Assembly: GCA_018432315.1 (NCBI GenBank)
Contig: JAHDLB010000020.1
Span: forward strand, 1 to 64,000
Direction of reading: 5' to 3'
Length of the DNA: 64,000 bases
Source: Anaerolineae bacterium
Lineage (GTDB): Bacteria; Chloroflexota; Anaerolineae; Aggregatilineales; Aggregatilineaceae
Part shown: positions 9,701-52,815 of the stretch, piece after piece
Position numbering within the stretch: position 1 is the first letter of the stretch
Layout: each line of letters opens with the position of its first letter
The notes under the pieces: generated by a model
What the model was told of the DNA's origin: nothing
The model's database searches: none
What the model saw: only the letters and a program-made list of their open reading frames with translations
Position numbers and translations under genes: made by a program

Positions 9701-10753
9701 GTGTTCAAAAAATCACCCCGTACAATCAGCTTGATCATGGTGTTAGCGCTGTCGCTGGTGCTGCTGGCAGCCTGTGGGTCCGATTCAAACGACGACGACA
9801 AGAAAGACGAATCCCAGTCGCTGACGCCGACCAGCATCCAGCTTTCATGGGTCAATACCATCGAATTCGCCGGCCTGTATGCCGCCGACGCCCAGGGCTT
9901 CTACGCCGACAACGGGCTGGAAGTGGACATCCGCGGCGGCGGGTTTGACGAAAACGGCCAGTACATCGACGCGCTGGGGCTGGTCCTGAGCGGTGACGTC
10001 GATTTTGGTGTGGGCGATGCGGCGTCGCTGCTGCGGGCCCGCGCCGAGGGCAAGCCGCTGGTGGCGATTGGGTCGATCTACCAGCGCAGTCCGGTGTCGA
10101 TCATCGCGCTGGGCAGCAGCGAGATCGCCCGCCTGCAAGACCTGGCCGGCAAGCGCGTGATGATCGAAGAGGGCAGCAACCTCACCATGACGTATGAGGC
10201 CATGCTCGAAGTGCAGGACATCGACCGGTCGCAGATCGTCGAGGTGCCCAACGAGAATTTCGTCGTCGATCCGCTGGTCGATGGCGAGGTCGACGCTTAT
10301 CTGGGCTTTTTGACCAACGAGGCCATGCAGGTCGAGGCGCGCACGGACGACACCGTCGTCAACATCATGGCGAGCGATTACGGCGTCGATATCTACGTCA
10401 ACCTGATCTTCACGTCCGAAGAGACCATCAACGAGCGCCCGGAACTGGTGGAGTCGTTCCTGAAGGCCACCCTGGCCGGGATGGACTGGGCAGTCAACAA
10501 CCCGAGCGACGCGGCCCAGATCGTCCTGGACCGTTTTGGCGACGATCTGCCGGATACGATCCGCGAATTCCAGCCGGAAGCCATGCAGGCGTCGGTGCCG
10601 CTGCTCGAACCGTCGGGCCAGCGCATTGGCGACATGGACCCCGACGTGTGGGCATTCACCCAGGACTTCATGGTCGAGCACGGCGTGCTGTCCGAAGCGG
10701 TCGATCTGGATCAGGTCTATACCCTGTCGTTCCTGGATAAAGTGTACGAATAG
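9701..10753 (+). CDS. NMT1/THI5-like ABC substrate-binding lipoprotein
   Basis: A 350-residue lipoprotein with a lipobox (LLAAC) after a hydrophobic signal. The mature chain fits the SsuA/THI5/NMT1 type II binding-protein family (IQLSWVNTIEFAGLYAADAQGFYADNGL...). The family binds pyrimidine precursors, alkanesulfonates, riboflavin and similar compounds. The GTG start at 9701 follows a GGAG site; a TTG at 9686 is the other choice. No cognate permease or ATPase is present. It lies between two receptors, which suggests it feeds ligand to the kinase encoded just downstream. That role is inferred. Confidence 0.82.
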   Translation: MFKKSPRTISLIMVLALSLVLLAACGSDSNDDDKKDESQSLTPTSIQLSWVNTIEFAGLYAADAQGFYADNGLEVDIRGGGFDENGQYIDALGLVLSGDVDFGVGDAASLLRARAEGKPLVAIGSIYQRSPVSIIALGSSEIARLQDLAGKRVMIEEGSNLTMTYEAMLEVQDIDRSQIVEVPNENFVVDPLVDGEVDAYLGFLTNEAMQVEARTDDTVVNIMASDYGVDIYVNLIFTSEETINERPELVESFLKATLAGMDWAVNNPSDAAQIVLDRFGDDLPDTIREFQPEAMQASVPLLEPSGQRIGDMDPDVWAFTQDFMVEHGVLSEAVDLDQVYTLSFLDKVYE

Positions 10754-18525: not shown

Positions 18526-18555
18526 TCGCTCGACTACCATCTATCGGCTGAACAG

Positions 18556-18593
18556 GCGCTCCGCTGGGGTCACACTTGACGGGGCGCTTTTTT
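18556..18593 (+). terminator. Rho-independent terminator after the PA14/SH3b gene
   Basis: GCGCTCCG at 18556-18563 pairs with CGGGGCGC at 18580-18587 (one G-T pair), followed directly by six T. It lies 31 bases after the stop codon. Confidence 0.75.
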
Positions 18594-18684
18594 GTGTGAA
18601 ACTAGGACTCAGGTGGGATCGTCCCTGGACGCGTGGGGCGGTATACTCGGTGCTAAGGTCCACGGTGTGTGGGAACGCGGCGGC

Positions 18685-36364: not shown

Positions 36365-38153
<1,789 letters not shown>

Positions 38154-38154
<1 letters not shown>

Positions 38155-38781: not shown

Positions 38782-39888
38782 CTACTGCCGCAGCGCCGCA
38801 TCGAAGAAATCGATCATCCGGGCTGAATAGTGCTCGGGGTCGGCAGAGAATCCGCCGACATGCCCGGCATTCGCGATGATCCACAGGTCGCCGTTCTCAC
38901 CGAGGTAAGGTTCGTACTCGCGGTTGAAGTCGGCTTCATACGGGGCCAGGCCGCCGGCAACAAGCATCAGGCGGCGCGGGGCAATCTGTGGGATAAGCTG
39001 TTTTGCTGGAACCAGTTCCTCGCCAAGATAGACCTCAGCCAGCCAAAATGCCTGGCGGTTGATGAACCGAATGAGCGTTGCGCCAATGCCGTCATAATAA
39101 GAAGGAATATCCTCGACGTTGTTGATGCCCAGTCCATCGCTCCAGATAGCCTTCAAGCGCGGCTCGTTCGGGCCAGCCATCACCAGGATGTGGGCACCGA
39201 GTGACAGCCCCACGCCCCCGATGCGATCAGCATCGACCTCGGAACGTTCCGACAACCAATCGATAATCGGTGTGATGTCCCGCTGGTCGTATAGGCCAAC
39301 CGATTGACGCTCACCGGTACTTTCGCCAGATGCGCGTTGATCGTAGACCAGCACGCCAAAGCCCGCTTCATGGAGCACGCGCGCATGCCGGAGCCCGTCT
39401 CTGCGATCGCTCCGGCTGCCGTGCAGCACCATCACGACGGCGCCGCTCCCATCCGTTGGGGGCGCGTACCATCCCGCCAGCGTCTCATTATCGGCGACCG
39501 GTATGTTCACTTCCTCAACATCATCGCCCAGGCCACTGGTCTCAATGCAGCACACGTCATGATGCTGGGCGGGGGTCTGGGCGTAGAAATAGATGAACGG
39601 CCCAATGAAGGCGATTGTCAGAACGATTTCGAGCAGCACTGCCAGCGTCACGCGACGGCGGTAGATCCAGCCCCCGATCATGCCCAGACCAAACTCGACG
39701 ATCAGCCCCACACCCAGGCCAAACGCCAATCCGATCAACAGCCAGCGGACCAGGTCGAACACGTAATAGCCGGCGACGGCAAACAGCGCTCCAAAAATCA
39801 GCGCGTTTATAGCGGGGAAGAGCAGTCGCGGCAGCCAGTTGTTCTGGCGACTGGGGCTGGCGTTGCGGTTCTTGTCGTCTGGGGTCAT
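38782..39888 (-). CDS. Membrane-anchored alpha/beta hydrolase
   Basis: A protein of about 368 residues. The N-terminus has about three membrane helices (INALIFGALFAVAGYYVFDLV, LIGLAFGLGVGLIVEFGLGMIGGWIY, IVLTIAFIGPFIYFY). The rest is an alpha/beta hydrolase: oxyanion-region HG in VVMVLHGSRSDR, nucleophile Ser in GVGLSLGA (GxSxG), and the catalytic His in IIANAGHVGG. Members include esterases and peptidases; the substrate is unknown. The ATG at 39888 (MTPDDKNRN) is taken, with longer starts to 39921 possible. A copy of the CGGAACGTTCCG palindrome lies in its coding sequence. Confidence 0.78.
   Translation of the reverse strand: MTPDDKNRNASPSRQNNWLPRLLFPAINALIFGALFAVAGYYVFDLVRWLLIGLAFGLGVGLIVEFGLGMIGGWIYRRRVTLAVLLEIVLTIAFIGPFIYFYAQTPAQHHDVCCIETSGLGDDVEEVNIPVADNETLAGWYAPPTDGSGAVVMVLHGSRSDRRDGLRHARVLHEAGFGVLVYDQRASGESTGERQSVGLYDQRDITPIIDWLSERSEVDADRIGGVGLSLGAHILVMAGPNEPRLKAIWSDGLGINNVEDIPSYYDGIGATLIRFINRQAFWLAEVYLGEELVPAKQLIPQIAPRRLMLVAGGLAPYEADFNREYEPYLGENGDLWIIANAGHVGGFSADPEHYSARMIDFFDAALRQ
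39241..39250. repeat. GGAACGTTCC palindrome, copy 1 (within hydrolase gene)
   Basis: Flanked by C and G, giving CGGAACGTTCCG. On the coding strand it encodes Glu-Arg-Ser (LSERSEVD). It is the leftmost copy, about 6 kb from the next. Confidence 0.85.
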
Positions 39889-40058
39889 GTGGAGTGCTCT
39901 GTACCATATCGTGTGCATCAATTATGGTGGATCTTTCTTCCCCGGCCTAGCTGGGGTCGCAACAAGACACCGACGCACTAACGCCAATTCAATTCCCGGT
40001 GCTTGCTGTCTTCGCTGGCGCGTAGGATTCCGCCCACTCAACTGCGAAGCGCTGCGGA

Positions 40059-40274
40059 TCACCGGGCCGCTGCTTCACTTTCCGAAGGCTCGATCACATC
40101 ATCGAGGACCAGCTCTTGCTGTTGGGTGGCTTCCTCGCCAGCGCGAATCGTCTGGGCAATGAGGTCGACGTTGGCCGCCAGGGCATCCTGGACGCTGGAA
40201 TACCGGTACAGAGATGGGTCGTTGCCGATGGTCAGCGGGAAGGGTTTCACTTTGTTGCTGCGACGGTGGGCCAT
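40059..40274 (-). CDS. Small protein of unknown function
   Basis: A 71-residue protein starting MAHRRSNKVKPFPLTIGND and ending in an acidic tail (LVLDDVIEPSESEAAAR). The start is supported by an AAGGGA site about eight bases upstream. The middle (SSVQDALAANVDLIAQTIRAGEE) looks helical. No family is recognised. It is divergent from the tyrosine-recombinase-like gene, with 271 bases between them. Size and placement would suit a regulator or an accessory factor; nothing more can be said. Confidence 0.5.
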   Translation of the reverse strand: MAHRRSNKVKPFPLTIGNDPSLYRYSSVQDALAANVDLIAQTIRAGEEATQQQELVLDDVIEPSESEAAAR

Positions 40275-40545
40275 GGGTTTATTCCCTTCCAGCAAAAAAG
40301 AGAGCCGGCATCGCTTTGAATCGGACAGCGTCACCAAAAGTCTCGCCCAATATCCCATCACTGGATATTTTGGCCTTGGCATCGCCGGTTGATGCGCAAG
40401 CTCTGAGTATTGAGTGCAACATTGTGCTTTTCTCCTGCGTGAATTCCTCGGCCAGACCTTGACGAAGTCCGCCCTCCGAGGTACACTGATTGTACCACAA
40501 AGGGCGTATAATTCCAAAATTCCTAACCGAAGAGGACGGTGGTCG

Positions 40546-41559
40546 ATGGATGAACAGCAGCAGCTTCCAGAATGGTTCGCCATACAGAGCGAAGAACGGT
40601 GGACCAAGGACCTCCGCGTCCGTGTCGACGCATTGGCGACATGGCTCAGACGCCAAGACCAGCCGTGGTACGCGCTGGACTTGCAGGCGTTCGGCGTCCA
40701 TCTGCAAGAGGAGGCCGGCCATGCCCCAGCCACGGTGTATGCCTATCTCTCATCGGTTCGCGCCTGGCTGCGGGAGCTGCTGGAGGAGGGCGTTGTTCTA
40801 GACAGCGTGCGAAATGACCTACGAGGTCGTGTCCCGCCAGATCGGCTCGATGAAGAAGCCAACGCGATCGTCACGGCGATCAAGGACGCGATTGACCCCG
40901 GCAAGACCCCCGTCGAGCTGCCCGATGCAGAGCCGGACTACACGCGCCTGACTGCCAATGACCTGGTCGCGTTCTTCGACAGCATCAAGCGCAGAACAGG
41001 GCTAACCCTGCTGCGCGACCGCGCGATATTCGGCCTGATGCTGGGCTGCGGCCTGCGCATTCACGAGATCGTGCAGCTGAGCGCTGTGGACCTGTTCTGC
41101 TGGGACCCACGGAACTACGAGCCTGCGGTTCATGTCCCGCCGGGTTTCGGCAGTACCGAGCGCATCGTCCCCTACCACCCCTTCCCAACCATACACGACT
41201 GGGCGCGGGACTGGGTCAGGGTTGCGGAGATCGTGGACGGCCCGGCATTCCGAGGCTTCATCCCCCGACAACATGCCATCCGGCCTGAGGCGCTGTCCGC
41301 GCGAGCGGTCGAGAAAATCCTGGGGGGCTACAAGATTGAGAGGGGGGAGGGGATGGTCAAGATCAAGCCGATGGACCTGCGGCGGGCGTATGCGCGCATT
41401 CTGTACGAGGGTGGGATCAGCCTGCCCGAAATCCAGGCTCGGCTCGGCCTCAAGGGGGCGGGGGCGGTGCTCAACTACATTGGCGGAGATGAGGCCGACC
41501 TGCGCGTTCCGTTCGGCCAGGATGTCTTCGAGTTCTTCAATCTGCATGTTTTCAACTAA
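40546..41559 (+). CDS. Tyrosine-recombinase-family integrase with altered catalytic positions
   Basis: A 337-residue protein. An N-terminal SAM-like core-binding domain (about 25-110, WLRRQDQPWYALDLQAF) is followed by a catalytic domain (about 140-330). R171 is seen in GCGLRIHEI, the second Arg in MDLRRAYARIL (R279), and a Tyr in LNYIGG (Y311). The usual His of the HxxR box is Met276, and the usual His/Trp position in LGHxS is Leu or Lys (LGLKGAG). The enzyme may therefore be impaired or represent a divergent lineage such as XerH- or phage-like forms. The ATG at 40546 has a GAGGA site. Confidence 0.82.
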   Translation: MDEQQQLPEWFAIQSEERWTKDLRVRVDALATWLRRQDQPWYALDLQAFGVHLQEEAGHAPATVYAYLSSVRAWLRELLEEGVVLDSVRNDLRGRVPPDRLDEEANAIVTAIKDAIDPGKTPVELPDAEPDYTRLTANDLVAFFDSIKRRTGLTLLRDRAIFGLMLGCGLRIHEIVQLSAVDLFCWDPRNYEPAVHVPPGFGSTERIVPYHPFPTIHDWARDWVRVAEIVDGPAFRGFIPRQHAIRPEALSARAVEKILGGYKIERGEGMVKIKPMDLRRAYARILYEGGISLPEIQARLGLKGAGAVLNYIGGDEADLRVPFGQDVFEFFNLHVFN

Positions 41560-41584
41560 TGTAATCGCCAGGAGGCGTAAGACC

Positions 41585-41914
41585 ATGAGCAACTTCAACC
41601 AGCGGTCAACACCGCGCGCGACAAGCAAGTGGCTGTTCTTCTATCAGGCTAAGATCGTCGCGCTGGCGTACGCCATCAGTCTTATCCCGCTGCCAGTCCG
41701 GATGGCACATGCCGTGGCTGTGGAGGGGTTCGTCCTGTGGCTACTCATCTCGGCCATTTACACCGTGTGGTACCGCCGTCGCGGGGGTATGCTGGACGTA
41801 ACCGAGTACGTAGTACACGATGAGGAGGTAAACCTCAGGACGCAGGTTGGGTACCTGCCAGGTAAAAGCAATTCGGCGTCTAGTGCTGATCGGACGAACG
41901 TTGTAAAGCCATGA
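41585..41914 (+). CDS. Small membrane protein of unknown function
   Basis: A 109-residue protein with two hydrophobic stretches (KIVALAYAISLIPLPVRMAHAV and GFVLWLLISAIYTVWYRRR), a basic N-terminus and a polar C-terminus. A GGAGG site precedes the ATG. It lies 25 bases after the integrase gene and 13 bases before the primase gene, so the three are probably one transcript. No known family is recognised. Confidence 0.65.
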   Translation: MSNFNQRSTPRATSKWLFFYQAKIVALAYAISLIPLPVRMAHAVAVEGFVLWLLISAIYTVWYRRRGGMLDVTEYVVHDEEVNLRTQVGYLPGKSNSASSADRTNVVKP

Positions 41915-41927
41915 TGGCAAAGAGGAT

Positions 41928-44495
41928 ATGATGAAAGACAGTGACAAAAACAGTTTGCGATCCTTGTCCGAGGATCGCAAACTCCACCAAACGAAATCGC
42001 TCACGATCGACCCCAATCGACAATCTATCAAGACACAGGAGGTCTCAATAGACACCATGAATGATATCGCTGTGGGTGATAATCCTATTATATCACAAAC
42101 CGACTCGGTGTCTACGGCTGCTCAGGCTGAGCAGAGTGCGCCTGAAGCCAACGACAGTGACCTGGCGGGCTGGCAGAAGCTACTGAAGGACAGAGGTATC
42201 CTTGAAGCTGCACTGAAGGCCGGTTGGAGCGGTTTCGAGTGGAACGGGCATCCCGGCTGGGCAATTCCGCTGGCGGACGAAAACGGTGATCTTCTGAACC
42301 TACCTGACGGTCGTCCTGCTCAACGGTGGAAGAACCAGACGAGTACGCCTGAGGACGGCCAACCGCCCAAGTACTTCTGGGGATACCCCGGCGCCGCCAA
42401 AGGGCAAACCAAGCCGGAAGGCTGTGATTGCTACCACATCCCCGGAGTGTCCTTGCCAGAGGCCATCGAGCAACACGGCGGAGCGCTGATGGTCGCGGCA
42501 GGTGAGCCGGATATGCTTACTCTCCACACCGTGGGGTTCGACAACGCGCTCTCATTTTTCGGGGAGACCAATATCCCCAAAGACTTCGTCACCAGGGCGC
42601 GCCGGTGGGGGACTACTAAGATTGGGTACATTCCCGATCGCGATGATACGGGGCACAAGTCGGTCGAGAAACTGGCAACGCTTCTTCGTGGAACAGGCAT
42701 CCCGCTGCGAATTTTCCAGCTTCCCGAGGAGGTGAACGGTACACCGATCAAAGATGTCAACGATTTGTATCGCGCACTGGGTTGCGATCCCAAGCGCTTC
42801 CGGAAGGAGTTGAGCAAACTTGAGAGAATCACGTTGACCAATGAACTCGACGACCCTGACACCAGTGGTCGCAAGCGTGGAAAACGTAGCCGGCAGACCA
42901 CAGCCTATCGTGAACTGCCGGGTGATTTCTATGAGGCGATCGAAAGCGCGTTAGGCGTCTCTGAGTACCAGTCGAACGGATGGAGCAAGCCAATCGCGTG
43001 CCCCTTCAAGTCCCACGAGCACGATGATTCGAAGCCGGCTGCTGCGTATCATCGCGACTATCACATCGTGCACTGCTTAAAATGCGGGCAAACGTGGCTT
43101 GCTGTTGAGGTGGGAGCTGTGCTGGGGCATAACTGGCGTGACTACTGCAAGCGCGAACGGTCCGAATCTCCTACGCACTCGCGACGCGGCAGCACTTTGC
43201 GTGAAGCGTTCGACGCTGCGGAAACACAAGGCGAGACGCCGACCACGCCAGACGACGATGACCTGGGTGACCAGTTGATCGCCGAGATGGATGGGAACCT
43301 GGCGTACTTCCGCGGTAGTTGGCACCGATACGAGAATGGTTGGTGGCAGCGCGAACAGAATGTTAAACGCCCCATCTGGAAGGTCCTGAGTGACAACAAG
43401 TGGGCAGGTATTAAGCCGCGCCAGAACAGGGCCAATTCGGTAGAGAGCTACCTTCAGAGCCAGTTGTACGTGCCTGACGAGGCGGTAGATGCCGGACACA
43501 ACTATATCAACCTGCAAAATGGAATGGTCAATCTCGCAACAGGCCAACTTGAACCACACAACCGCGAGCTGTACGCCACGTGGCAGCTCGATTTCGCCCA
43601 TGATCCTGACGCTCAATGCCCAATCTGGCTGCAATGTCTGAACGACTGGCTGACCCACCCAGATGGAAAGCCTGATGAGGAGATGATCTGCCTGCTTCAG
43701 GAGGCCTTTGGCTACAGCCTGACAACGGACACCAGCTTTGAGACTGGATTCTGGCTGTATGGGCCTGCCGCCAGCGGCAAGTCCACGGTGTTGAAGGTCC
43801 TCCAAAAGTTGCTTGGGAACGGGCATACTAGCCTGGATTTGAGCATGCTGGACAAAAATCATTACCAGCTCGCTGAGCTCCCGGGAAAAAGGGCCATCAC
43901 ATGTCCAGAGGCGCGCAGCAACACGGTCGTCGCCGACCACATCATGAAAACCCTGATGAGCGGTGAGCGGATGGTCGCTCGGCAAATTTACGGGCGCAGC
44001 TTCCAGCTTGAACCGTACGCGAAGCTCTGGTGGGCTATGAACGAGCTGCCCTCTAACCGAGACCGCTCCGATGGGCTGTACCGGCGCTTGAAAATCCTGC
44101 CTTTCCCCAACGCGATCCCCCTTCACAAACGGGACCGGAAGCTGCTGGACAAGCTGCGCAGCGAGCTGCCCGGGATCTTCAACTGGGCTCTGGAGGGCTT
44201 GAAGCGTTTGCGGGCGAATGGTGCATTCACCGAAGCTGCTCAGGCGCAGCAGGCGGTGGAGGCCTACCGGCTAGAGAATGATGTCGAGAAAATGTTTGTC
44301 GATGAATGCTGTGTCGTTGACCCGCAAGCGTCCGTCCGATCCAGCGTTCTGTACGATGCCTACAAGCTGTGGTGCGAGGAGAATGGGTATCGTGCCAAAA
44401 CCCAAAAGGCAGTCGCGAGTGACTGGGCACGCCTCGGCTTCGAAAAGAAAGAAAGACGGGAGGGCAACGTGTACCTTGGCCTTAGAGTGAAGTAG
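41928..44495 (+). CDS. D5/P4-type primase-helicase
   Basis: An 855-residue replication protein. A TOPRIM-like segment (about 230-250, IGYIPDRDDTGHKSVEKLA) is followed by a Cys/His cluster that may bind zinc (CPFKSHEHD...HCLKCG, about 357-388). The D5_N region leads into an SF3 helicase domain: Walker A GPAASGKST at about 612-620, and ITCPEARSNTVVAD and WWAMNELPSNRDRSDGLYRRL as the B, B' and C motifs. This is the gene layout of phage, satellite and plasmid primase-helicases. The N-terminal 120 residues are polar and low in complexity and contain an 11-base inverted repeat, so the true start may be further in. Confidence 0.9.
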   Translation: MMKDSDKNSLRSLSEDRKLHQTKSLTIDPNRQSIKTQEVSIDTMNDIAVGDNPIISQTDSVSTAAQAEQSAPEANDSDLAGWQKLLKDRGILEAALKAGWSGFEWNGHPGWAIPLADENGDLLNLPDGRPAQRWKNQTSTPEDGQPPKYFWGYPGAAKGQTKPEGCDCYHIPGVSLPEAIEQHGGALMVAAGEPDMLTLHTVGFDNALSFFGETNIPKDFVTRARRWGTTKIGYIPDRDDTGHKSVEKLATLLRGTGIPLRIFQLPEEVNGTPIKDVNDLYRALGCDPKRFRKELSKLERITLTNELDDPDTSGRKRGKRSRQTTAYRELPGDFYEAIESALGVSEYQSNGWSKPIACPFKSHEHDDSKPAAAYHRDYHIVHCLKCGQTWLAVEVGAVLGHNWRDYCKRERSESPTHSRRGSTLREAFDAAETQGETPTTPDDDDLGDQLIAEMDGNLAYFRGSWHRYENGWWQREQNVKRPIWKVLSDNKWAGIKPRQNRANSVESYLQSQLYVPDEAVDAGHNYINLQNGMVNLATGQLEPHNRELYATWQLDFAHDPDAQCPIWLQCLNDWLTHPDGKPDEEMICLLQEAFGYSLTTDTSFETGFWLYGPAASGKSTVLKVLQKLLGNGHTSLDLSMLDKNHYQLAELPGKRAITCPEARSNTVVADHIMKTLMSGERMVARQIYGRSFQLEPYAKLWWAMNELPSNRDRSDGLYRRLKILPFPNAIPLHKRDRKLLDKLRSELPGIFNWALEGLKRLRANGAFTEAAQAQQAVEAYRLENDVEKMFVDECCVVDPQASVRSSVLYDAYKLWCEENGYRAKTQKAVASDWARLGFEKKERREGNVYLGLRVK
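41953..41982. repeat. Perfect 11-base inverted repeat at the 5' end of the primase gene
   Basis: GTTTGCGATCC (41953-41963) and GGATCGCAAAC (41972-41982) around an eight-base loop. It lies 25 bases after the assigned primase start. Confidence 0.85.
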
Positions 44496-44562
44496 AGGCC
44501 TACGGTCATAGGCTCCGACGCCTGAGAGCCGGTTCGCTCTCCCGTCGTCCCTTCAAGTTATC

Positions 44563-44598
44563 TGGCGGCACGTGGTACGAATGGTACTCGTGCCGCCA
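44563..44598. repeat. Perfect ten-base inverted repeat after the primase gene
   Basis: TGGCGGCACG (44563-44572) and CGTGCCGCCA (44589-44598) with a 16-base loop that itself holds GGTAC repeats. No T-run follows, so termination is possible but unproven. Confidence 0.7.
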
Positions 44599-44878
44599 AG
44601 TTGTTCTACTCATCGATGCAAACTCGATCGCCCGCCTGCCCTGGTGAGACCCCTCTCGGTAGTCACAACCGTAGGAGACCGTCACGCATCAGCGCCGGGT
44701 CACCTGGTCGTGCAAATAGCTTGTTGCTTTCGCATGGCAGGGGCGTGACAGACACTGGCGGAGGATTTTGTGGTGCCTTGAACGTGTCGGCCTACCCCAA
44801 GTCATCGGGGAGCAGCGTGCTGGTCGGCGCCGCAAGATTATTCTGGCCGGACGGCTAGCCCGATCGGTGACTGTCCTT

Positions 44879-44905
44879 GTGGAGGGTGTGGAGGGTGTGG
44901 AGGGT
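44879..44905. repeat. Three tandem GTGGAGGGT nonamers (iteron-like)
   Basis: Exact head-to-tail copies at 44879-44887, 44888-44896 and 44897-44905, followed by TTTT. The same nonamer occurs inverted 100 bases to the right. Confidence 0.88.
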
Positions 44906-45005
44906 TTTTCCAATGTATCCTAGTTTTTCGACGCTACTGTTACGTACATCATAAGGCAAACAAAAATCAAGCGTAATCTGAGAATTCCCAACATATATAG
45001 AGCTA

Positions 45006-45023
45006 ACCCTCCACACCCTCCAC
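45006..45023. repeat. Two tandem ACCCTCCAC nonamers, inverse of the left array
   Basis: Exact copies at 45006-45014 and 45015-45023, the reverse complement of GTGGAGGGT. The pair of arrays brackets an AT-rich spacer. Confidence 0.88.
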
Positions 45024-45236
45024 AATCAGCACAACGGAAAACCACGCCTGAATTGAAATCAACTATGCAGTGCACACACCTATGTGAAGCGCACGTTGTC
45101 TCCTGCCCAGGGCCGCAACTCGCAGGCAGCACCAGCGTCTCAAATGATCTGTTCTATTGCATCTCAGTTGAACATTTATTGATTAATATCATGCAGTTCA
45201 TTCACATTCAAAGCAATAGTTATAAATTATGACGCC

Positions 45237-45246
45237 GGAACGTTCC
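45237..45246. repeat. GGAACGTTCC palindrome, copy 2
   Basis: Flanked by C and G, with an extra GGGAAC half-site directly to the right. Non-coding, about 300 bases before the membrane gene at 45543. Confidence 0.85.
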
Positions 45247-45303
45247 GGGAACCGACTCACATGGCCGCACAGGATGCATTTTCATCCCTCTGGCGGACTT
45301 CAT

Positions 45304-45323
45304 TGGGCGACAAGTGTCGCCCA
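45304..45323. repeat. Nine-base inverted repeat between palindrome copies 2 and 3
   Basis: TGGGCGACA and TGTCGCCCA around AG; an operator-like site of a different sequence from the GGAACGTTCC family. Confidence 0.75.
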
Positions 45324-45354
45324 TTTTCCTGACCTTCACTCTTTCTTCATTTTC

Positions 45355-45364
45355 GGAACGTTCC
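45355..45364. repeat. GGAACGTTCC palindrome, copy 3
   Basis: Non-coding, 118 bases after copy 2, with an extra CGGAAC half-site to the right. The right flank is C rather than G. Confidence 0.85.
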
Positions 45365-45542
45365 CGGAACGGCGCTACAAGCCGCCTGGCATAGCCTGGC
45401 CCGACGCGCGTGGTAGACCGGCAACAGGCCGCCACCGGCACCCCTCAGCCCAGATGCATGGGCTGGCAATTTGTACTATGATGCAGCTACAAACGCCGGC
45501 AGGATGGCCTGGCGCGCGCTTCACCACCGGATGGAGACCCCG

Positions 45543-45995
45543 ATGACCCTCAGCGACGAAACCACCCAGCTTGCCCTGATGCTGTTGTGCGGCGTGCCGC
45601 TGGTCCTGGGCGTGCCAGGCACCGTCTTATTGTGGCTCGGCTTCAAGCTTCACGTCAGCGACAAGACCAGCGACCAGGGTGTTGAGCGGACCATGCGCCG
45701 CTTCGCCCAGGGCTTTGTAGGCCGTCAGGAGGAAGGCACCGGCTTCGTCGACAGCCTGCTGGGCGCCTCGGGTGACGCACAGAAACCCGGCTGTCTGGCC
45801 CAGCTGTTCCTCTACCCGGGCGCGCTGCTGTACGGTCTGTTGAGCCTGTACTTCCGCGTACTGCTCCTGCCCATCCGCGTCGTCTGGTGGCTCATAAGGC
45901 TTCCCTTCCGCTGGCTGGCAGAGCATCCACGCGTCCGGTTTGCCCTGGTGGTCCTCATCATCGCTCTGGTCATCCTGGGCGCCCTGGCCCGCTGA
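45543..45995 (+). CDS. Membrane protein of unknown function
   Basis: A 150-residue protein with an N-terminal membrane helix (LALMLLCGVPLVLGVPGTVLLWLGF), a soluble middle (residues 35-80), and two C-terminal hydrophobic stretches (LFLYPGALLYGLLSLYFRVLLLPIRVVWWLI and FALVVLIIALVILGALA). The ATG at 45543 has a GGAG site six bases before it; one further upstream is possible. Two GGAACGTTCC palindromes and a second inverted repeat lie upstream and could act as operators. No family recognised. Confidence 0.62.
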   Translation: MTLSDETTQLALMLLCGVPLVLGVPGTVLLWLGFKLHVSDKTSDQGVERTMRRFAQGFVGRQEEGTGFVDSLLGASGDAQKPGCLAQLFLYPGALLYGLLSLYFRVLLLPIRVVWWLIRLPFRWLAEHPRVRFALVVLIIALVILGALAR

Positions 45996-46552
45996 GACGG
46001 CATTACCCCCCTGTTCACTTTGAAGCCCTTGGTATCGGCAAGAGGGTGTCCGTTTGGCGCAGTAAGGCACCAAAAGGACCCGTGGCCTGCGTTTCACCCC
46101 TCTGAGAGCGTCCTGGCGCGCCGTCAGGGACTTGTGGGCTCGGGAAAGGCACCCTGCGGCCATGTTACTTGTAGACGACAGAATTTGGACTGTTGGACTA
46201 CACCCAGGGGACGGCAAGGCTAGCGCAGGAATTGACGTTTGCTGTCCTGTCGTGAATGGCTTGTGGACTTGCAGCTCGCCTCTACGACGGGGGATTATCT
46301 GGGAAACTGATCGGCTGGGCATGCGAGACGATTTCTCAGAATTGCTCACAAAATGCGGTCTGGGCCATTTTTTTGCAGCACATGGATGCCCACGGGGATA
46401 TGAGCCAGTTCACAAATTCGCCATTTTCGAAAGCGACCCGCCTTCACCACATCCCGGAACGTTCCGGAACCCCCAGGAAAACGAACATCGCGCCGGGGGG
46501 AACAGCGCGATGTCGTCGAAGATGGTGACCAGAGGGGTCGTGGCACAGCAGC
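45996..46552. other. Non-coding stretch
   Basis: No gene with a convincing ribosome-binding site or protein-like composition is seen on either strand. One GGAACGTTCC palindrome (46456-46465) lies in it. Confidence 0.5.
46456..46465. repeat. GGAACGTTCC palindrome, copy 4
   Basis: Non-coding; flanks C and G; an extra GGAAC half-site follows directly. Confidence 0.85.
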
Positions 46553-46867
46553 TCACCCCCTCAGCTGGCGGAGGATGGCGTCCTTCATCTCCCTTCCCTC
46601 GCGTGTGGTGAGATAGCGGCTGTTACGGCCAGCCGAGTGTGGCGGGCGGTACAGCGACCCACTCCGGGCCATGGACCGCGTCATTTCCTTCAGGACGCTC
46701 ATGGTGTACGCGGCAAAGCGCGGGTCGCCGGCCAGGTCGCGGATGGGCCGGGCCTCCGGATAGTCGCTATCCGTCTGAAAGAAGTCCAGCAGGTCGGCGA
46801 TGAGTTCCTGCCGCTGCCGCTCGGTCAGGTCACTCACGGTTTGAATTGGCTTGCGGTCGTCCGTCAT
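46553..46867 (-). CDS. Small protein of unknown function
   Basis: A 104-residue protein beginning MTDDRKPIQTVSDLTERQ, rich in charged residues and probably helical, ending with a basic segment (REGREMKDAILRQLRG). A GGAG site lies about nine bases before the ATG. A perfect 18-base palindrome sits 17-34 bases upstream of the start and is a probable operator. It follows the HTH frame with 45 bases between. No family recognised. Confidence 0.55.
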   Translation of the reverse strand: MTDDRKPIQTVSDLTERQRQELIADLLDFFQTDSDYPEARPIRDLAGDPRFAAYTMSVLKEMTRSMARSGSLYRPPHSAGRNSRYLTTREGREMKDAILRQLRG

Positions 46868-46883
46868 GTCCGTTTCTCCAAGG

Positions 46884-46901
46884 CCAGGGAATATTCCCTG
46901 G
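46884..46901. promoter_or_regulatory. 18-base perfect palindrome, candidate operator
   Basis: CCAGGGAATATTCCCTGG lies in the 45-base gap between the HTH frame and the small gene at 46553-46867. Its core GGAATATTCC is related to the element-wide GGAACGTTCC by a change of the two centre bases. Confidence 0.7.
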
Positions 46902-46912
46902 GGTGTATCGAT

Positions 46913-47098
46913 TCAGCTTTCTTCGCCAGCATCCTTCAGTATCTGCTGGGCTTTGTGAACTGTCGTGTGCGAGACGCCGATGACCTCTTGTAGCTGCCGG
47001 CTGGGCGTGTCCAGGTGCTCGGGATGGTTCTCCAGCCATGCCAAAGCCCTCTGCAACTTTGGTGAAGTCCGCTGGCGCGGCGCGTGTCCAGCCGTCAA
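46913..47098 (-). CDS. Helix-turn-helix frame, possibly the C-terminus of the upstream membrane protein
   Basis: The best start is a TTG at 47098, giving 61 residues with a helix-turn-helix (SRQLQEVIGVSHTTVHKAQQIL). No ribosome-binding site is seen there. The same frame stays open upstream to about 47,269 and the translation is protein-like (DVLASAVREGLG, ARSEALLSGILEALTRLEEHA), but it has no ATG, GTG or TTG in that part. It overlaps the 3' end of the membrane gene, and a slippery heptamer lies at 47,251-47,257. It may therefore be made by -1 frameshifting. Alternatives are a sequencing or natural frameshift, or a CTG start. Confidence 0.5.
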   Translation of the reverse strand: MTAGHAPRQRTSPKLQRALAWLENHPEHLDTPSRQLQEVIGVSHTTVHKAQQILKDAGEES

Positions 47099-47229
47099 AT
47101 TTACGCCGTTGACGCCCGCTTCAGCGTGCTCCTCCAGCCGGGTGAGGGCCTCCAGAATGCCGCTCAGCAGGGCTTCGGAACGGGCAAGGTCAGGATTTGC
47201 CGTGCCAAGCCCCTCCCGGACAGCGCTGG

Positions 47230-48150
47230 CTAGAACGTCGGCGAATTGTCGAAAGGGACGGTCTCGACATCACCCTCCAGGCCATTCCCCAACAGCAGGT
47301 ACGGGCTGCCGGCATCCAGCGCCAGCTTGTTCTCCACCAGGAACTTGCGGTGCAGCGCCATGCGCGTGCGTTCCTCGGCCTCTTCCGTCCAGCGCCGGTC
47401 GATTTCCTCCCGCCAGGCGGCTTCCAGCTCGCTCTTGATGCGGTCGTTCTCCTGGCGGTACAGGTCGTAGCTCAGATGCGCCAGCTGCGAGCCGACCGAG
47501 TGCAGGGCGAAGGGCGCCACGACTCCCATGAATACCGCGAACCCCAACTTCAGTAGGTCCAGGGTGGTCATCGAGGCCAGACTGGTCTCCAGGACCGGCA
47601 TGGCGGCGGTGAAGACGTTGGCACACAGGACCAGGGCAAACACCAGCTTCGCGTAGCGCTGCAAAGATGTGTCCGGCATCTGGTCGTAGTCGGGCACGGG
47701 AGCGAGCCCAAGCCGCACCTTGATGCCCTGCAGGATAGCCGGCAGGGTGATCACCCGCCTCTCCAACCCATGCTGCAAGCGCTGGCGGGTGGCGGCGAAG
47801 GCGACGTAGACCATCGAGCCCTCGGTCATGACCACGCCCAGGATGCCAATCGTCTGCGTCCAGAACCAGCCGTCGTTGGCGGCCACCCCGCTGAAGGCGG
47901 CGTAGGTCTTGTCGGCGCTGATGACCATGCTCGAGATGAGAATGAGCATCAGGAACGCCGGCATGATCGCGATGGCGCGGACCAGGGCTTTGATGACCAC
48001 CGGGTTGTCATGCACCAGGTCGCGAATGGCGGGCTTGGGCTTGGGATGGCGCGTTTCCATCTCCTTGAGGTACGCCTGGTAAGCCTGGCCCCGCGCTTCC
48101 GCCTCCTGGTGCGGCGTCAAGGGCTTGAGCCGGTGATTTGATGCTGTCAT
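47230..48150 (-). CDS. Polytopic membrane protein, possible DUF2637-like element protein
   Basis: A 306-residue protein with a polar N-terminus (to about 48), about four membrane helices (for example ALVRAIAIMPAFLMLILISSMVI, TIGILGVVMTEGSMVYVAF, KLVFALVLCANVFTAAM, LLKLGFAVFMGVVAPFALHSV) and a charged helical C-terminus (YRQENDRIKSELEAAWREE). The pattern, with an HTH frame after it, recalls DUF2637-type proteins of actinobacterial integrative elements; that match is an impression, not a search result. A GGAACGTTCC palindrome lies about 40 bases upstream of the start. Confidence 0.62.
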   Translation of the reverse strand: MTASNHRLKPLTPHQEAEARGQAYQAYLKEMETRHPKPKPAIRDLVHDNPVVIKALVRAIAIMPAFLMLILISSMVISADKTYAAFSGVAANDGWFWTQTIGILGVVMTEGSMVYVAFAATRQRLQHGLERRVITLPAILQGIKVRLGLAPVPDYDQMPDTSLQRYAKLVFALVLCANVFTAAMPVLETSLASMTTLDLLKLGFAVFMGVVAPFALHSVGSQLAHLSYDLYRQENDRIKSELEAAWREEIDRRWTEEAEERTRMALHRKFLVENKLALDAGSPYLLLGNGLEGDVETVPFDNSPTF

Positions 48151-48186
48151 AACATTCCTCCGTTTCGATAGTGTCGGGTCAGGGCT

Positions 48187-48196
48187 GGAACGTTCC
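48187..48196. repeat. GGAACGTTCC palindrome, copy 5
   Basis: Lies in the 54-base gap between the RecA-like gene and the membrane gene, upstream of the latter. Left flank T, right flank G. A promoter operator role is possible. Confidence 0.85.
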
Positions 48197-48204
48197 GAAG
48201 CCCA

Positions 48205-49332
48205 TTACAGGTCGTTGTCCAGCAGATGGTTGATGGTGTCATCGTCCGGCAACTCGTCGAGCGCGATAATCGGCGCCTCAGCATCGGCCTTGTTGAGATT
48301 GCTGATACGCCACCGGACTGCCGCTTCAACCTCGGCGGCCAGCTCGCGATCTTCCTCAAGCGCCATCGTGACCTGCTTCTCGCCCACACCGATCTTCTCG
48401 CGGCCATGATCACGCTGGAAAAACCACGAACAAGCTCCCTTGATGGGGCTGCCGTCTTCCTTGGAGAAAACTCCAAGCTCCCTGCCAAGCATGGCCAACT
48501 CCGCGATGATGTCAGCCGTTCCCGTGTCCAGGAAGACTGTCACCAGCGCCTCGCGACCATTCCGGCCCACTTTGTTCTTGGAGCATTTCACGCGAAATTC
48601 CAGGCCGTACACTTCTCCGGTAGTCTTGTCAATGAGGGGCACCGGCTTCTGCACGACCCGACTAATGATCGAACTGTAAAAGCGGGGCGAATGACCACCG
48701 GGTTGTTGAACTTGAGGCCCGTAGGCAAAGCTGGCTTGGCCGAACTTATCCCGAACTTGGTTGATGCAGAGCACCGCCGTTGTGCTGTTGGCAAGCTCAG
48801 TCTTTGCACTCTTGAAGTACTGCGCGAGCACCGACGCCCGGCCTGCCACAACCTTGTCGCCAATCTCGCCGGCCAACTCCGCCTCAGTCGCCAGGGCTGC
48901 GATGCTGTCGAGCACAATGAGGTCGAACGCGGAACGTTCCGGGTTATCCGGGTGTTTCCACTTGACCATCTTGCGCATGGCGTTGAGCGCCTTCTCCGCG
49001 CTAGTGGGTTGGATCAGCCAAAAACGGCGGTCCTTGTTGTCGCCGCCCACGTCCAGGCCGAACTTTCCAGCCCAAATCGGGTCTATGGCAGCCTCGACAT
49101 CAACGTAGGCGACGTAGCCACCCCGGTCGATGACAGCCTTTGCAGCCATCAAAGCCAGGGTGGTCTTGCCCTGGCCTTCAGGGCCATAGAGCGTGCTGAA
49201 CCTGCCAACCGGCAGGCCGCCCCCGAAGGCATAGTCGAGTGCAAGGCTGCCAGTCGGATAGAACTGCACCGGCTCCGGCTCGGCCACGAACTCGATAGAG
49301 TCATCTCGGAACATCTTTTGAAGATCGCTCAT
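48205..49332 (-). CDS. RecA-like recombinase of mobile-element type
   Basis: A 375-residue RecA-family ATPase. Walker A GPEGQGKTT is at residues 50-58, preceded by the RecA-like LALDYAFGGGLPVGRFSTLYG, and the Walker B-like FDLIVLDSIAAL lies near 135. The NQVRDKFG segment and GGHSPRFYSSIISRV match the L1-L2 region of RecA, though divergent from the host-type sequence. It would support strand exchange or recombination-dependent replication of the element. Its start lies two bases after the stop of the HNH gene. One GGAACGTTCC palindrome is within its coding region. Confidence 0.87.
   Translation of the reverse strand: MSDLQKMFRDDSIEFVAEPEPVQFYPTGSLALDYAFGGGLPVGRFSTLYGPEGQGKTTLALMAAKAVIDRGGYVAYVDVEAAIDPIWAGKFGLDVGGDNKDRRFWLIQPTSAEKALNAMRKMVKWKHPDNPERSAFDLIVLDSIAALATEAELAGEIGDKVVAGRASVLAQYFKSAKTELANSTTAVLCINQVRDKFGQASFAYGPQVQQPGGHSPRFYSSIISRVVQKPVPLIDKTTGEVYGLEFRVKCSKNKVGRNGREALVTVFLDTGTADIIAELAMLGRELGVFSKEDGSPIKGACSWFFQRDHGREKIGVGEKQVTMALEEDRELAAEVEAAVRWRISNLNKADAEAPIIALDELPDDDTINHLLDNDL
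48931..48940. repeat. GGAACGTTCC palindrome, copy 6 (in RecA-like gene)
   Basis: Flanks C and G. It encodes Glu-Arg-Ser (NPERSAFDL). Confidence 0.85.
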
Positions 49333-49333
49333 G

Positions 49334-50317
49334 TTAGTCGTCTCCCGCTTCTGCTAGTTCGGTGTAGTGATGGTACAGGTGCGCCCAGGTTGAGCCTTTG
49401 AGGACATGCTTGACTGCTCCCCCACTTACGCCGAGCGCGCTGGCAATTTCCCGGCGCGTGTGGCCGCTTCTTGCCATCCGGTAAATCCTGAGAACTACGG
49501 CCTCAGTGAGTTGTGCCATGCCGTGTTTCTCACCACGCGGTGTGCCGCGCAAGTTATTTACCGCCGCAAGCAGCGCAGGGTCTATCTCGACGTGGGACCA
49601 TGTTTTGCGGTGCAGTATGTTGCCCACTACGTGGCTACCGACTCCACACACAACAGCGATTTGCCGCCACGTCATACCTCGCGCTCTCATCTCAAAGATG
49701 CAAGGGATGTCGGCCTCGGTTAGCGCTGTTAGGTGGTGACGACTGCCGCGCGGGCGTCCCCGCAGAGCATTCGCCGCATTGATCAAGTCAGGAGCAATCT
49801 CGACGTGGGACCATGTTTTGCGGCGCAATGCTCTCCTTATCACTGAGTCATCAACGCCGAATTTCTCCGCAATCTCTGCTAGCGTCATGCCCTTCACACG
49901 CATCTTGAAAATGCGCGGGATGTCGGCCTCAGTCAGCTTCGAGAACGGCAGGCGGCTCCCTCGCAGCATCGTGCCGTGCCTGTCCTTGTCTTTCATGTTG
50001 TTAAGCGCAGTGTCCCACCGCAGGTTTTCCAAGTGGTTGTCGGTGGGATTGCCATTGTTGTGGCAGCCCTCCATACCGTCCGGGCGTGGCCCGACGAAGG
50101 CTTCGAGTACCAGGTGGTGGACAAGAACACTTCTTCTCCTGCCGTTATCGTGTAAGTCCACCATACGGTATCCGCTATTGTCGAACGGCTTGAGCATTCG
50201 GCCTGGCCTGGTAGCCCTGCCAGCCGCCACCCGCTTCACGCGGCCCATGTTGCTGACCTCGTAGATGCCTTCAAACCCGACTACAGGTTTCCAGATTTCT
50301 CGGTGGTTTTTCGTCAT
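49334..50317 (-). CDS. NUMOD4/HNH endonuclease with three tandem HTH repeats
   Basis: A 327-residue homing-type endonuclease. It starts with a NUMOD4-like motif (EIWKPVVGFEGIYEVSNMGRVKR), then an HNH module (VLVHHLVLEAFVGPRPDG...CHNNGNPTDNHLENLRW). The C-terminal 200 residues hold three tandem helix-turn-helix repeats of about 65 residues (LTEADIPRIFKMRVKGMTLAEIA, LTEADIPCIFEMRARGMTWRQIA, LTEAVVLRIYRMARSGHTRREIA), the first two ending KTWSHVEI. The repeats would bind a long DNA target. It overlaps the next HNH gene by four bases. Confidence 0.88.
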   Translation of the reverse strand: MTKNHREIWKPVVGFEGIYEVSNMGRVKRVAAGRATRPGRMLKPFDNSGYRMVDLHDNGRRRSVLVHHLVLEAFVGPRPDGMEGCHNNGNPTDNHLENLRWDTALNNMKDKDRHGTMLRGSRLPFSKLTEADIPRIFKMRVKGMTLAEIAEKFGVDDSVIRRALRRKTWSHVEIAPDLINAANALRGRPRGSRHHLTALTEADIPCIFEMRARGMTWRQIAVVCGVGSHVVGNILHRKTWSHVEIDPALLAAVNNLRGTPRGEKHGMAQLTEAVVLRIYRMARSGHTRREIASALGVSGGAVKHVLKGSTWAHLYHHYTELAEAGDD

Positions 50318-51075
50318 CGACAGTTTCCTTTCTCGCCAGTCGCCGTTTCGGAACGTTCCGCAGAGAGATCGTCTTCGGGCGCTGGAAGTGTGATGTGAAG
50401 ATTTGTATTGCGCTGCTCATAGGCACTCTTGAAGCGCTCAAATGCGAGCGACACCTGCAAACGGCCATAACGCTTGAAGGCAATCCTGAACAGCTTGTCC
50501 CGGACCTCGGGATTGTGCGCGCGGCTGTGGCAGTTGGCGCAGAGCAGGGCGGTCAACTCCGGCACATAGGACAACTCACGCGCAGCCGGGTTGTTCACGG
50601 TCATGCCGCGCTGCAAGAGTTCGTGTAGCTGCAGGCCCAGGTGGTCGGGGGACTGGCCGCACAGGTCACACTTGGCGTGCTTGATGCCGCCGCGCTCGAC
50701 GATCATCGTGTGGCGCATCATCGCGCGCATGAACTCCAAGTCTTGTGTCATCTTGCCCCTTTCCAGCGCAGGGATGCGCTCAAACTCAAGACGGTCTTCA
50801 AGGTGCTGGACAGTCTCGCGCAGGTTGTGGCCCCACCGCCGCGCGTTGGCGTCCATGACGAGCTTCGCCATGCGCAGGGCGGTCTTGGGCTGGCCGTGAT
50901 GCTCGCGCCCGGCGTCTGAGATCACGAAGCCGGTGTCCCGGTCCACGATGCGCCAGGTCCAGCGCCAGGCTCGCCCGGTGACTACGGCGAGCATGTTGTA
51001 GTCACCGGGCAGAACGAAGCTCGTGAACTTGCCGGTCGTGATGCGGCTCCAAGTAGGGTGGTCGTCGGTGGGCAT
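50314..51075 (-). CDS. HNH-type nuclease-like protein
   Basis: A 253-residue protein. A C-terminal zinc/HNH-like module is visible: CDLCGQSPDHLGLQLHELL, then ALLCANCHSRAHNPEVR, with four Cys and conserved His. The N-terminal half is without recognised domain, but its aromatic-rich start (WSRITTGKFTSFVLPGDYNMLAVVTGRAWRWTWRI) is unusual. The stop overlaps the next gene (ATGA). A GGAACGTTCC palindrome is in its last codons. Confidence 0.8.
   Translation of the reverse strand: MPTDDHPTWSRITTGKFTSFVLPGDYNMLAVVTGRAWRWTWRIVDRDTGFVISDAGREHHGQPKTALRMAKLVMDANARRWGHNLRETVQHLEDRLEFERIPALERGKMTQDLEFMRAMMRHTMIVERGGIKHAKCDLCGQSPDHLGLQLHELLQRGMTVNNPAARELSYVPELTALLCANCHSRAHNPEVRDKLFRIAFKRYGRLQVSLAFERFKSAYEQRNTNLHITLPAPEDDLSAERSETATGEKGNCR
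50350..50359. repeat. GGAACGTTCC palindrome, copy 7
   Basis: In the 3' end of the HNH gene at 50314-51075, 33 bases before the start of the neighbouring HNH gene. Flanks C and G; encodes Glu-Arg-Ser (SAERSETA). Confidence 0.85.
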
Positions 51076-51105
51076 GGGTGGTGTCTTCCTTCGGGAGCGG
51101 GCCGG

Positions 51106-51225
51106 CTAGTCCTCGTCGAGCAGCAGGTTGTTGGCGGCAACCAGGATGTCCTGGATGAGGGAGTTGGGGGCGTAGAAAACGGCGCTTGCGCAGTCTCGGA
51201 ACGTTCCGAGATTGGGTCGAGTCAG
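51106..51225 (-). pseudogene. Possible gene remnant with palindrome insertion
   Basis: This 39-codon frame ends in a protein-like tail (CASAVFYAPNSLIQDILVAA, then NNLLLDED) but has no start codon; a TGA lies just before it. An ATG in another frame begins 20 bases upstream (MTDSTQ), so a frameshift near the GGAACGTTCC palindrome at 51198-51207 would join them. It may be a gene broken by the palindrome or simply chance. Confidence 0.25.
51198..51207. repeat. GGAACGTTCC palindrome, copy 8
   Basis: Extended palindrome TCTCGGAACGTTCCGAGA, 18 bases, upstream of the HNH gene that starts at 51075. Confidence 0.85.
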
Positions 51226-51327
51226 TCATCGCCAGCGGGGTCTTGGGGCGTGGAAGGGTGGGGCCGGAATCGAACATTTGTCTTTCTGAGTCATATGATT
51301 CACCACAGCGGTGTTACAGGGTCTAGA

Positions 51328-51945
51328 TCAGTCGGAAGAGCCTGTTTCCGTGTCCTGGGTCACGTTTGAGCTATCGTCGTTTCTAGGGCCTGTTTTGAGT
51401 CTCTGAGGGGCATCTCGCGTGGCGGGGTTATCGCGCGAGGGCAGCTCTCCGGAACGTTCCGGAACGCTGTCGCGGGTCAGGTCGGAGTTGTCGCGGGCGT
51501 GCTCGCCGTAGAGCTGCTTTGCAGCCGCGTCGTAGGCTTCCGCGGCCTCCTCTGCCGTCTCGAAGTAGCCCAGGAAGTGGCGGCGGTTGTGGACCTGGAT
51601 GCGCGCGTAGTATTTCTGGTTGAGCCGGTGCCAAGAGACCCCCTTGTAGCCGGAGGCATTGAGCTGGACCTTGCGGTTCCACTGGTTTTGGGCGCGGGTG
51701 ACCAGGCGCAGGTTGGCGCGGGTGTTGTTGAGCGGGTTGCCGTCGATGTGATCGACGATCTGACCGGGTTGGGCGTCGAGGAGATACCGGTGCAGGTAGA
51801 CACGCTTGCGCGCGCCGTTGACTCTCACCGAGCCGACAGCGTAGCCGGTGCCGTTGATGTGCCAGCGAAATTGGGAGAGCGCCTCGAAGTCGGAATCATC
51901 GACCAGGGCGAATCGCCCTTTGGAGAGTGGGAGCTGTTTGGGCAT
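51328..51945 (-). CDS. HNH endonuclease with AP2 DNA-binding domain
   Basis: A protein of about 205 residues. The N-terminal half has the HNH_3 module (VYLHRYLLDAQPGQIVDHIDGNPLNNTRANLRLVT). An AP2-like DNA-binding domain follows (SGYKGVSWHRLNQKYYARIQVHNRRHFLGYFETAEEAAEAYD), the usual layout of phage HNH-AP2 homing enzymes. The C-terminal 60 residues are polar and disordered. The ATG at 51945 (MPKQLPLSKG) is taken; a TTG at 51960 would add five residues. One GGAACGTTCC palindrome is in its 3' part. Confidence 0.88.
   Translation of the reverse strand: MPKQLPLSKGRFALVDDSDFEALSQFRWHINGTGYAVGSVRVNGARKRVYLHRYLLDAQPGQIVDHIDGNPLNNTRANLRLVTRAQNQWNRKVQLNASGYKGVSWHRLNQKYYARIQVHNRRHFLGYFETAEEAAEAYDAAAKQLYGEHARDNSDLTRDSVPERSGELPSRDNPATRDAPQRLKTGPRNDDSSNVTQDTETGSSD
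51451..51460. repeat. GGAACGTTCC palindrome, copy 9
   Basis: In the AP2/HNH gene (VPERSGEL); flanks C and G, with a further GGAAC half-site to the right. Confidence 0.85.
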
Positions 51946-51960
51946 GAGGATGTGCTGCAA

Positions 51961-52602
51961 GTGGGTGGAGGAGGTGTCAAGGAATTGAGGCCAGGTTGTG
52001 GACTTGGTGACCTGGCGTCCCAGCGGAGAAGAGAGTGGTACCCGACGCTTAGGACGGCAGTCATTTTACCCCAAAGCGGGTAGTGAGTCAAATGTCCGCT
52101 ATTAGAACAGTCTGGCGCATCTGGACCCCTCTATGGCACGCATTCAGCCGTGAGCATCACCCGCCCGCGGAATATTCCGGGAGCGCCTTGGAGCTTGCTG
52201 AGGCCAGTTTTGCCGATTAGGACTATTTGCCCATGTTGCGGGTTTGACACACCCTGAGACCTGCGGTAATCTGAGTAGGGGTAACCGAGAGAGCCTTACC
52301 CGTAACGGCGTTTCGGATATTATTCTATTATTAGCTAGCTTATACGGGGCCGGGGGGAATTCTTCTCATTCCTTATCAAACCGCAGCTTTCGTCCGCGTC
52401 GACCAAGTGGGCGCTCGAAAAAGCGGGAAACTGATGGTCAACTCGGACCGTTAGTTCTCCCGGCGTTATCAGCCCCCGCGCCCGCACATAGTCCCGTTGC
52501 CGCATGCAGCAGATGTATGTCGGAACGGCGGAGCATGCATGGTGAACCAGGTATCTACCGCACGGCGGTAGTCACCGACACGTCTCTGTCTTCAAGGGCT
52601 TT
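51961..52602. other. Spacer near the right side of the element
   Basis: No convincing gene is seen. A GGAATATTCC palindrome within CGGAATATTCCG lies at about 52,169-52,180, the same core as the 18-base operator candidate at 46,884. The AT-rich tract around 52,315-52,345 stands out from the surroundings. Confidence 0.4.
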
Positions 52603-52815
52603 GTGCCGAATGTACAGAAAGTCATTGTGGCACAGATTCGGGGTGACAGAAATTTGCTCCAAATACCGGAGTTGAGCGAAGAAACCGATATCAGATGGCC
52701 TCTATACCGGAACGGGCGGGAAACGGGCCGATGCTACCGCCAGATCGCGGCGGAGGTGGGGCTGCACTGGACGAGGGTCGGGCAGATTGTGCGGTCATCA
52801 GAGAAACACAAATAA
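52603..52815 (+). CDS. Possible small HTH protein or gene remnant
   Basis: A 70-residue frame with a GTG start and no clear ribosome-binding site. The second half has a sigma-like helix-turn-helix (CYRQIAAEVGLHWTRVGQIVRS). It may be the tail of a larger lost gene. It lies just before the truncated epimerase. Confidence 0.3.
   Translation: MPNVQKVIVAQIRGDRNLLQIPELSEETDIRWPLYRNGRETGRCYRQIAAEVGLHWTRVGQIVRSSEKHK

Follow-up and report, generated by a model that had tools for sequence, protein, structure and literature searches.

The repressor of Streptomyces phage phiC31 binds sites that carry the name CIR, and the sites of parS, Noc, SlmA and MatP are short exact palindromes found both within and between genes. 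HIP1-like sequences are highly iterated palindromes that occur genome-wide. In the cluster A mycobacteriophages (L5, TipsytheTRex), more than 20 stoperators are spread over the element, in operators and in intergenic positions (PMC9283540). An account of plasmid RK2 (PMC11790492) places KorB operators both near to and far from promoters and describes a ParB-like clamp that silences over distance. Dispersed element-wide sites are a known class, described from a handful of well-studied phages and plasmids. In the literature searched we found nothing on point about elements of this kind in Chloroflexi or among ICEs, GGAACGTTCC and GTTACGCGTAAC appeared only in apparently unrelated papers (one on Streptomyces regulons), and we met neither the element family nor the word swap between siblings nor the reader proposed below; absence in print is not proven by these searches.

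We analysed a window of 64,000 nucleotides from an Anaerolineae bacterium (GCA_018432315.1, contig JAHDLB010000020.1, positions 1 to 64,000). A sequence-only reading had listed nine exact copies of GGAACGTTCC at 39241-51460, and the window scan reproduced all nine coordinates exactly (Table 1). Its description of the copies also held in detail. Seven of the nine read CGGAACGTTCCG, the exceptions being sites 3 and 5; the additional GGAAC on the right of four copies follows directly at sites 4 and 9 and after a 1-base gap at sites 2 and 3. Genic and intergenic copies are mixed (four and five, respectively), and all four genic copies (sites 1, 6, 7, and 9) encode Glu-Arg-Ser.

The set is all-or-none, since the window contains a single one-mismatch copy (53697) when 2.3 would be expected at one mismatch or fewer. 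A dinucleotide model predicted 0.019 exact copies in 17 kb. The genome-wide count that the sequence-only reading had proposed as a check showed an element-specific density: the own genome (G000; 5,691,113 bases, 66 contigs) holds 16 copies, nine in the window and only seven elsewhere (three on C46, two on C17, and one each on C39 and C51), and a reversed control word had none. With the seven other copies as background, 0.015 copies were expected in 12.2 kb (P about 1e-22, a post hoc value that is still tiny when corrected for some 1024 palindromic 10-mers and some 470 windows of equal size). Chance is excluded as the source of the nine copies. Among 61 genomes including G000 the word was ordinary, with 0 to 6 copies per genome in the other 60. 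The feature is real and private to the mobile element. A host-wide repeat or a restriction/methylation word was ruled out by the element-only density. The flank that the window copies have in common ends at about 17-19 bases; no longer repeat was found, and recombination via common flanks was rejected.

Table 1. Sites and genes of the window element, in window coordinates.
Feature	Position	Strand	Remarks
Serine integrase	36391..38154	-	gene end overlaps tRNA-Ala 36365-36437; 23% identity to C64 sibling
Site 1	39241..39250		within alpha/beta-hydrolase gene 38782-39921, Glu-Arg-Ser
Tyrosine recombinase	40414..41559	+	37% identity to C64 sibling
D5/P4-type primase-helicase	41928..44495	+	
Site 2 with extra GGAAC half-site	45237..45251		6-8 bp downstream of promoter-like match 45201-45230
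Site 3 with extra GGAAC half-site	45355..45370		intergenic
Site 4 with extra GGAAC half-site	46456..46470		intergenic
104-aa protein	46553..46867	-	no family match; winged-helix-like by eye; second candidate binder
Related palindrome GGAATATTCC	46888..46897		another at 52169-52178
Small helix-turn-helix (HTH) protein	46916..47221	-	putative start; homologous to two C64 proteins (37-40% identity); candidate binder of the sites
Membrane protein	47230..48150	-	about four hydrophobic stretches by eye; 36-37% identity to C64 sibling
Site 5	48187..48196		intergenic; 36 bp ahead of membrane-protein ATG (gap equal in C64 sibling)
RecA/UvsX-like recombinase	48205..49332	-	32% identity to C64 sibling
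Site 6	48931..48940		within RecA-like gene, about 400 bp in
NUMOD4-HNH endonuclease with HTH repeats	49334..50317	-	
253-aa protein	50314..51075	-	weak HNH matches
Site 7	50350..50359		3' tail of gene 50314-51075; 32 bp ahead of ATG of gene 49334-50317
Site 8	51198..51207		intergenic, upstream of gene 50314-51075
HNH endonuclease	51328..51960	-	AP2-type tail by eye; 49% identity to C64 sibling
Site 9 with extra GGAAC	51451..51465		3' tail of AP2-HNH gene

The stretch that carries the sites adjoins tRNA-Ala and has a serine integrase and two or three HNH proteins; none of the element proteins scanned matched a capsid or terminase. We found neither an attR (the best repeat of the tRNA region was 14 bases at 51869, inside the HNH gene) nor the right border of the element. 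In the gap 3' of the primase gene (44877-45034) lies an inverted repeat of 30 nt, TTGTGGAGGGTGTGGAGGG, whose arms are 98 nt apart, a possible origin. The GGAACGTTCC sites are biased away from coding sequence: four of nine lie in genes where 77% of the sequence is coding (P = 0.036), and the sites of the C64 sibling described below behave likewise (two of seven in genes, 73% coding, P = 0.017), with gene limits that follow our own choice of open reading frames. Promoter-like matches were not above chance in the promoter scan (6 found, 3.7 expected). The related palindrome GGAATATTCC occurs seven times genome-wide, two of them in the window and three on C46.

Comparison with phiC31, which served as a known positive, revealed both likeness and difference. 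One exact palindrome is dispersed far above chance across each element, and the same scan returned 15 copies with the core TACTCACGTGAGTA in phiC31. However, 14 of these 15 are intergenic, whereas only five of the nine window copies are, so copies in the window element are not almost all intergenic; most phiC31 copies reach about 18 bp, compared to 10-12 bp in the window. No phiC31-type repressor was found among the proteins scanned. As with stoperators, the sites are spread over the element, but stoperators are asymmetric 13-mers oriented with transcription and the window sites are perfect palindromes. The KorB and ParB-parS systems differ in that no ParB/KorB domain was detected in the window or C64 proteins scanned; such a protein is present in a further element, L063. 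The sites of parS, Noc, SlmA, and MatP mark chromosomes; among the four elements considered here a ParB-like protein occurs in L063 only. Unlike HIP1-like repeats, GGAACGTTCC does not occur chromosome-wide: of its 16 copies in 5.69 Mb, nine are in the window.

A search for the membrane protein in 154 genomes of the order gave matches in four, including the own genome, where a second copy was located on contig C64. An unsupervised scan for over-represented palindromes in this stretch returned GTTACGCGTAAC seven times (expected 0.000). These seven exact copies span 13.7 kb, and only four others exist in the genome (two on C2, one on C31, and one on C38; n = 11). One-mismatch copies number nine genome-wide, three of them on C64 and three on C2. 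GGAACGTTCC is absent from C64, and the window has no copy of GTTACGCGTAAC with fewer than two mismatches. The two elements have five gene families in common at 32-49% protein identity, or six when the serine integrase is counted (Table 1). Each has a site that stops exactly 36 bp ahead of the ATG of the membrane-protein gene, whose neighbour is the small HTH gene; the other site positions are not the same. Their RecA genes align without gaps at both internal sites, and the internal words thus arose by substitution and not by insertion. An insertion element within genes was ruled out for the RecA gene on the same alignment. A remnant on C2 matches C64 in the end of its tyrosine recombinase (76% over 33 residues) and in a 114-aa protein (56-64%), and it has two sites, one in each matching gene, at places homologous to C64 sites; this conservation may be due in part to the encoded protein (Val-Thr-Arg).

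The sequence-only reading had proposed a DNA site used across the element, and this part is well supported by the element-specific density, the exactness, the bias away from coding sequence, and the 36-bp position kept in C64. It had also taken absence of the word from related elements as evidence against such a site. Literally, the C64 sibling does lack GGAACGTTCC, but a word of its own is arranged there in the same way, and the case for an element-private site is stronger for it.

How general such palindromes are was assessed by scanning for exact half-sites of 6 bases at gaps of 0-3, compared to 40 Markov shuffles each. The best counts were 7 in the window, 7 in C64, 5 in L063, and 4 in L055, with shuffle maxima of 2. 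L063 and L055 are two further Anaerolineae elements with private palindromes of their own: GATAAC-N-GTTATC in L063 (5 exact) and CAATCC-N-GGATTG in L055 (4 exact and three one-mismatch copies). Among the distinct loci of D5-primase relatives, 2 of 20 besides the window passed; L107, L109, and L110, on the contigs of L055, L057, and L063, had no separate scan, and L108, also in the scanned set, is a repeat of the contig of L059. The other 18 distinct D5 loci, C46, and the phage contig L074, which is not a D5 locus, gave counts of 1 or 2, within reach of the shuffles. The C2 remnant had a count of 2, above its shuffles (maximum 1). No case among thirteen chromosomal pieces exceeded all shuffles (L029 reached 3, equalled by one shuffle). 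In 60 additional pieces of the own genome (874,237 bases) the counts were 0-3, one of the two 3-counts being a 48-bp tandem repeat, except for one piece with 17; this count comes from a CRISPR-like array with a 61-bp period in L378 (G000:C12, 6043-6958).

In L063 (G091:C65), which has FtsK-like, ParB-like, D5, and tyrosine recombinase genes, the open reading frames at 63-539 and 18129-18605 are identical and lie 18,066 bases apart, which points to a circular element of about 18 kb. The L063 palindrome also has nine copies among the early genes of a podovirus-like contig (L300, 3710-7613). L300 and L063 have no real homologue in common, and the word alone therefore does not name its binder. Other repeats were encountered in L136, an IMG/VR contig (CGTTACGCGTAACG seven times at 8378-8756, six copies in a 52-bp tandem array), and near the D5 primase of L056 (G118:C23, 5460-5565), where a run of 15-bp GATC-rich repeats perhaps represents iterons. 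Relatives of the membrane protein were absent from GTDB contigs and IMG/VR. Among 396 genomes of the class, besides the own genome, one phage contig (G361) had a relative, in a search that scored at most five candidates per genome and in which misses are likely; this contig had no palindrome set.

We give about even odds to the palindromes being dispersed, element-private binding sites of an element-encoded DNA-binding protein, most likely the small HTH protein of the operon after site 5. The GGAACGTTCC sites would most likely be operators like those of phiC31 or of RK2 KorB. The HTH domain was modelled with pLDDT > 90 over most of its length, a fold search gave nothing below E 0.3, and the protein has no close solved relative. 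In its gene, no standard start codon is in frame before 47098. In the stretches fetched around membrane-protein homologues in G011, G022, G028, and G361 there was no good HTH match (best E 0.012). We infer that an HTH homodimer would recognise CGGAAC/GTTCCG; bound beside promoters or start codons it would block initiation, and bound within operons and genes it would block elongation or seed spreading. The replication, recombination, and nuclease genes of the element could thereby stay silent until excision, and an own word per element might allow two siblings to coexist in one cell without cross-talk, like phage immunity groups. Several observations speak against operators: four of nine sites are genic; one of these lies inside the RecA-like gene, at about 400 bp, a place where one would not expect a plain operator; operators seldom come as exact copies with no degenerate ones; promoter-like matches do not exceed chance; and all site positions but the 36-bp one differ between the siblings.

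Under the main rival, segregation or anchoring, the palindromes would be spread centromeres (like ParB parS, Noc, or MatP), with the membrane protein tying the bound element to the envelope. Genic dispersal and exactness fit this rival. In C64 the HTH gene overlaps the membrane-protein gene by a few bases, and in the window the two almost touch. In L063 one of the five exact private palindromes falls in the gene for the ParB-like protein (Noc model, E 8e-4; 4umk, E 1e-4), a gene that also overlaps one for a membrane protein, and the C64 HTH resembles the HTH of this ParB (42% over 31 aa, E 0.003); L055 has an actin-like partition gene (by eye) and a MerR-type HTH protein. These mixed gene sets make partition a serious rival. 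Against it, no ParA or ParB domain was seen among the window or C64 proteins scanned, the L063 membrane protein has no BLASTP match to that of the window, and an element that is integrated can do without its own partition; we consider this explanation rather unlikely. About as unlikely is the broader proposal of a private address system, in which every Anaerolineae integrative element would have one exact palindrome written all over its DNA and a small HTH protein, coupled to a membrane protein, to read it, with co-resident siblings silenced, kept, or anchored separately without ParA/ParB.

That every copy is exact would also be expected of a passive short repeat, spread by conversion or mutation bias with no binder, and the decayed HTH gene fragments on C46 hold the word inside a longer repeat. 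The short extent of the similar flanks in the window, the different sequence of the C64 palindrome, the bias away from genes, and the conserved 36-bp spacing make this improbable. Even more doubtful are targets of the HNH nucleases of the element, or recombinase sites for module exchange: related HNH proteins are common to the window, C64, and L055 elements and several sites lie at gene ends, but L063 shows the pattern although nothing in it matches that HNH protein, nine cuts in its own element would be costly for a nuclease, and the sequences flanking the sites are not common. Capture of sites of a LacI-type host regulator is very improbable. It would account for the two chromosomal copies (GGGAACGTTCCC) that flank a LacI-family gene on C17 and for pairs with about 1.07-kb spacing that recur in four relatives. 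The window sites, however, lack the outer G/C of the C17 operator, no LacI gene lies nearby or among the element proteins scanned, and the C64 sibling uses another word.

The C17 pair itself (L001, 6746-6755 and 7818-7827) looks like an operator of the LacI-family gene between its copies; an rRNA origin was rejected, as Rfam gave only tRNA in the three sources searched. On C46 (L002) the decayed HTH fragments at 8167-8199, 9733-9765, and 10041-10073 carry GGAATATTCC, GGAATATTTCC, and GGAACGTTCC at the same place, and one pair differs by a double change that keeps the palindrome. A similar fragment is present in the window at 52603-52815.

Two siblings in one genome with different words, common genes, and one common site position form a natural specificity-swap pair, in which change of the site and change of the reader can be compared directly. 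The same palindrome scan needs no annotation and can be applied to any genome to find such systems. With its different word in a similar pattern, the sibling suggests that every element marks its DNA for its own protein.
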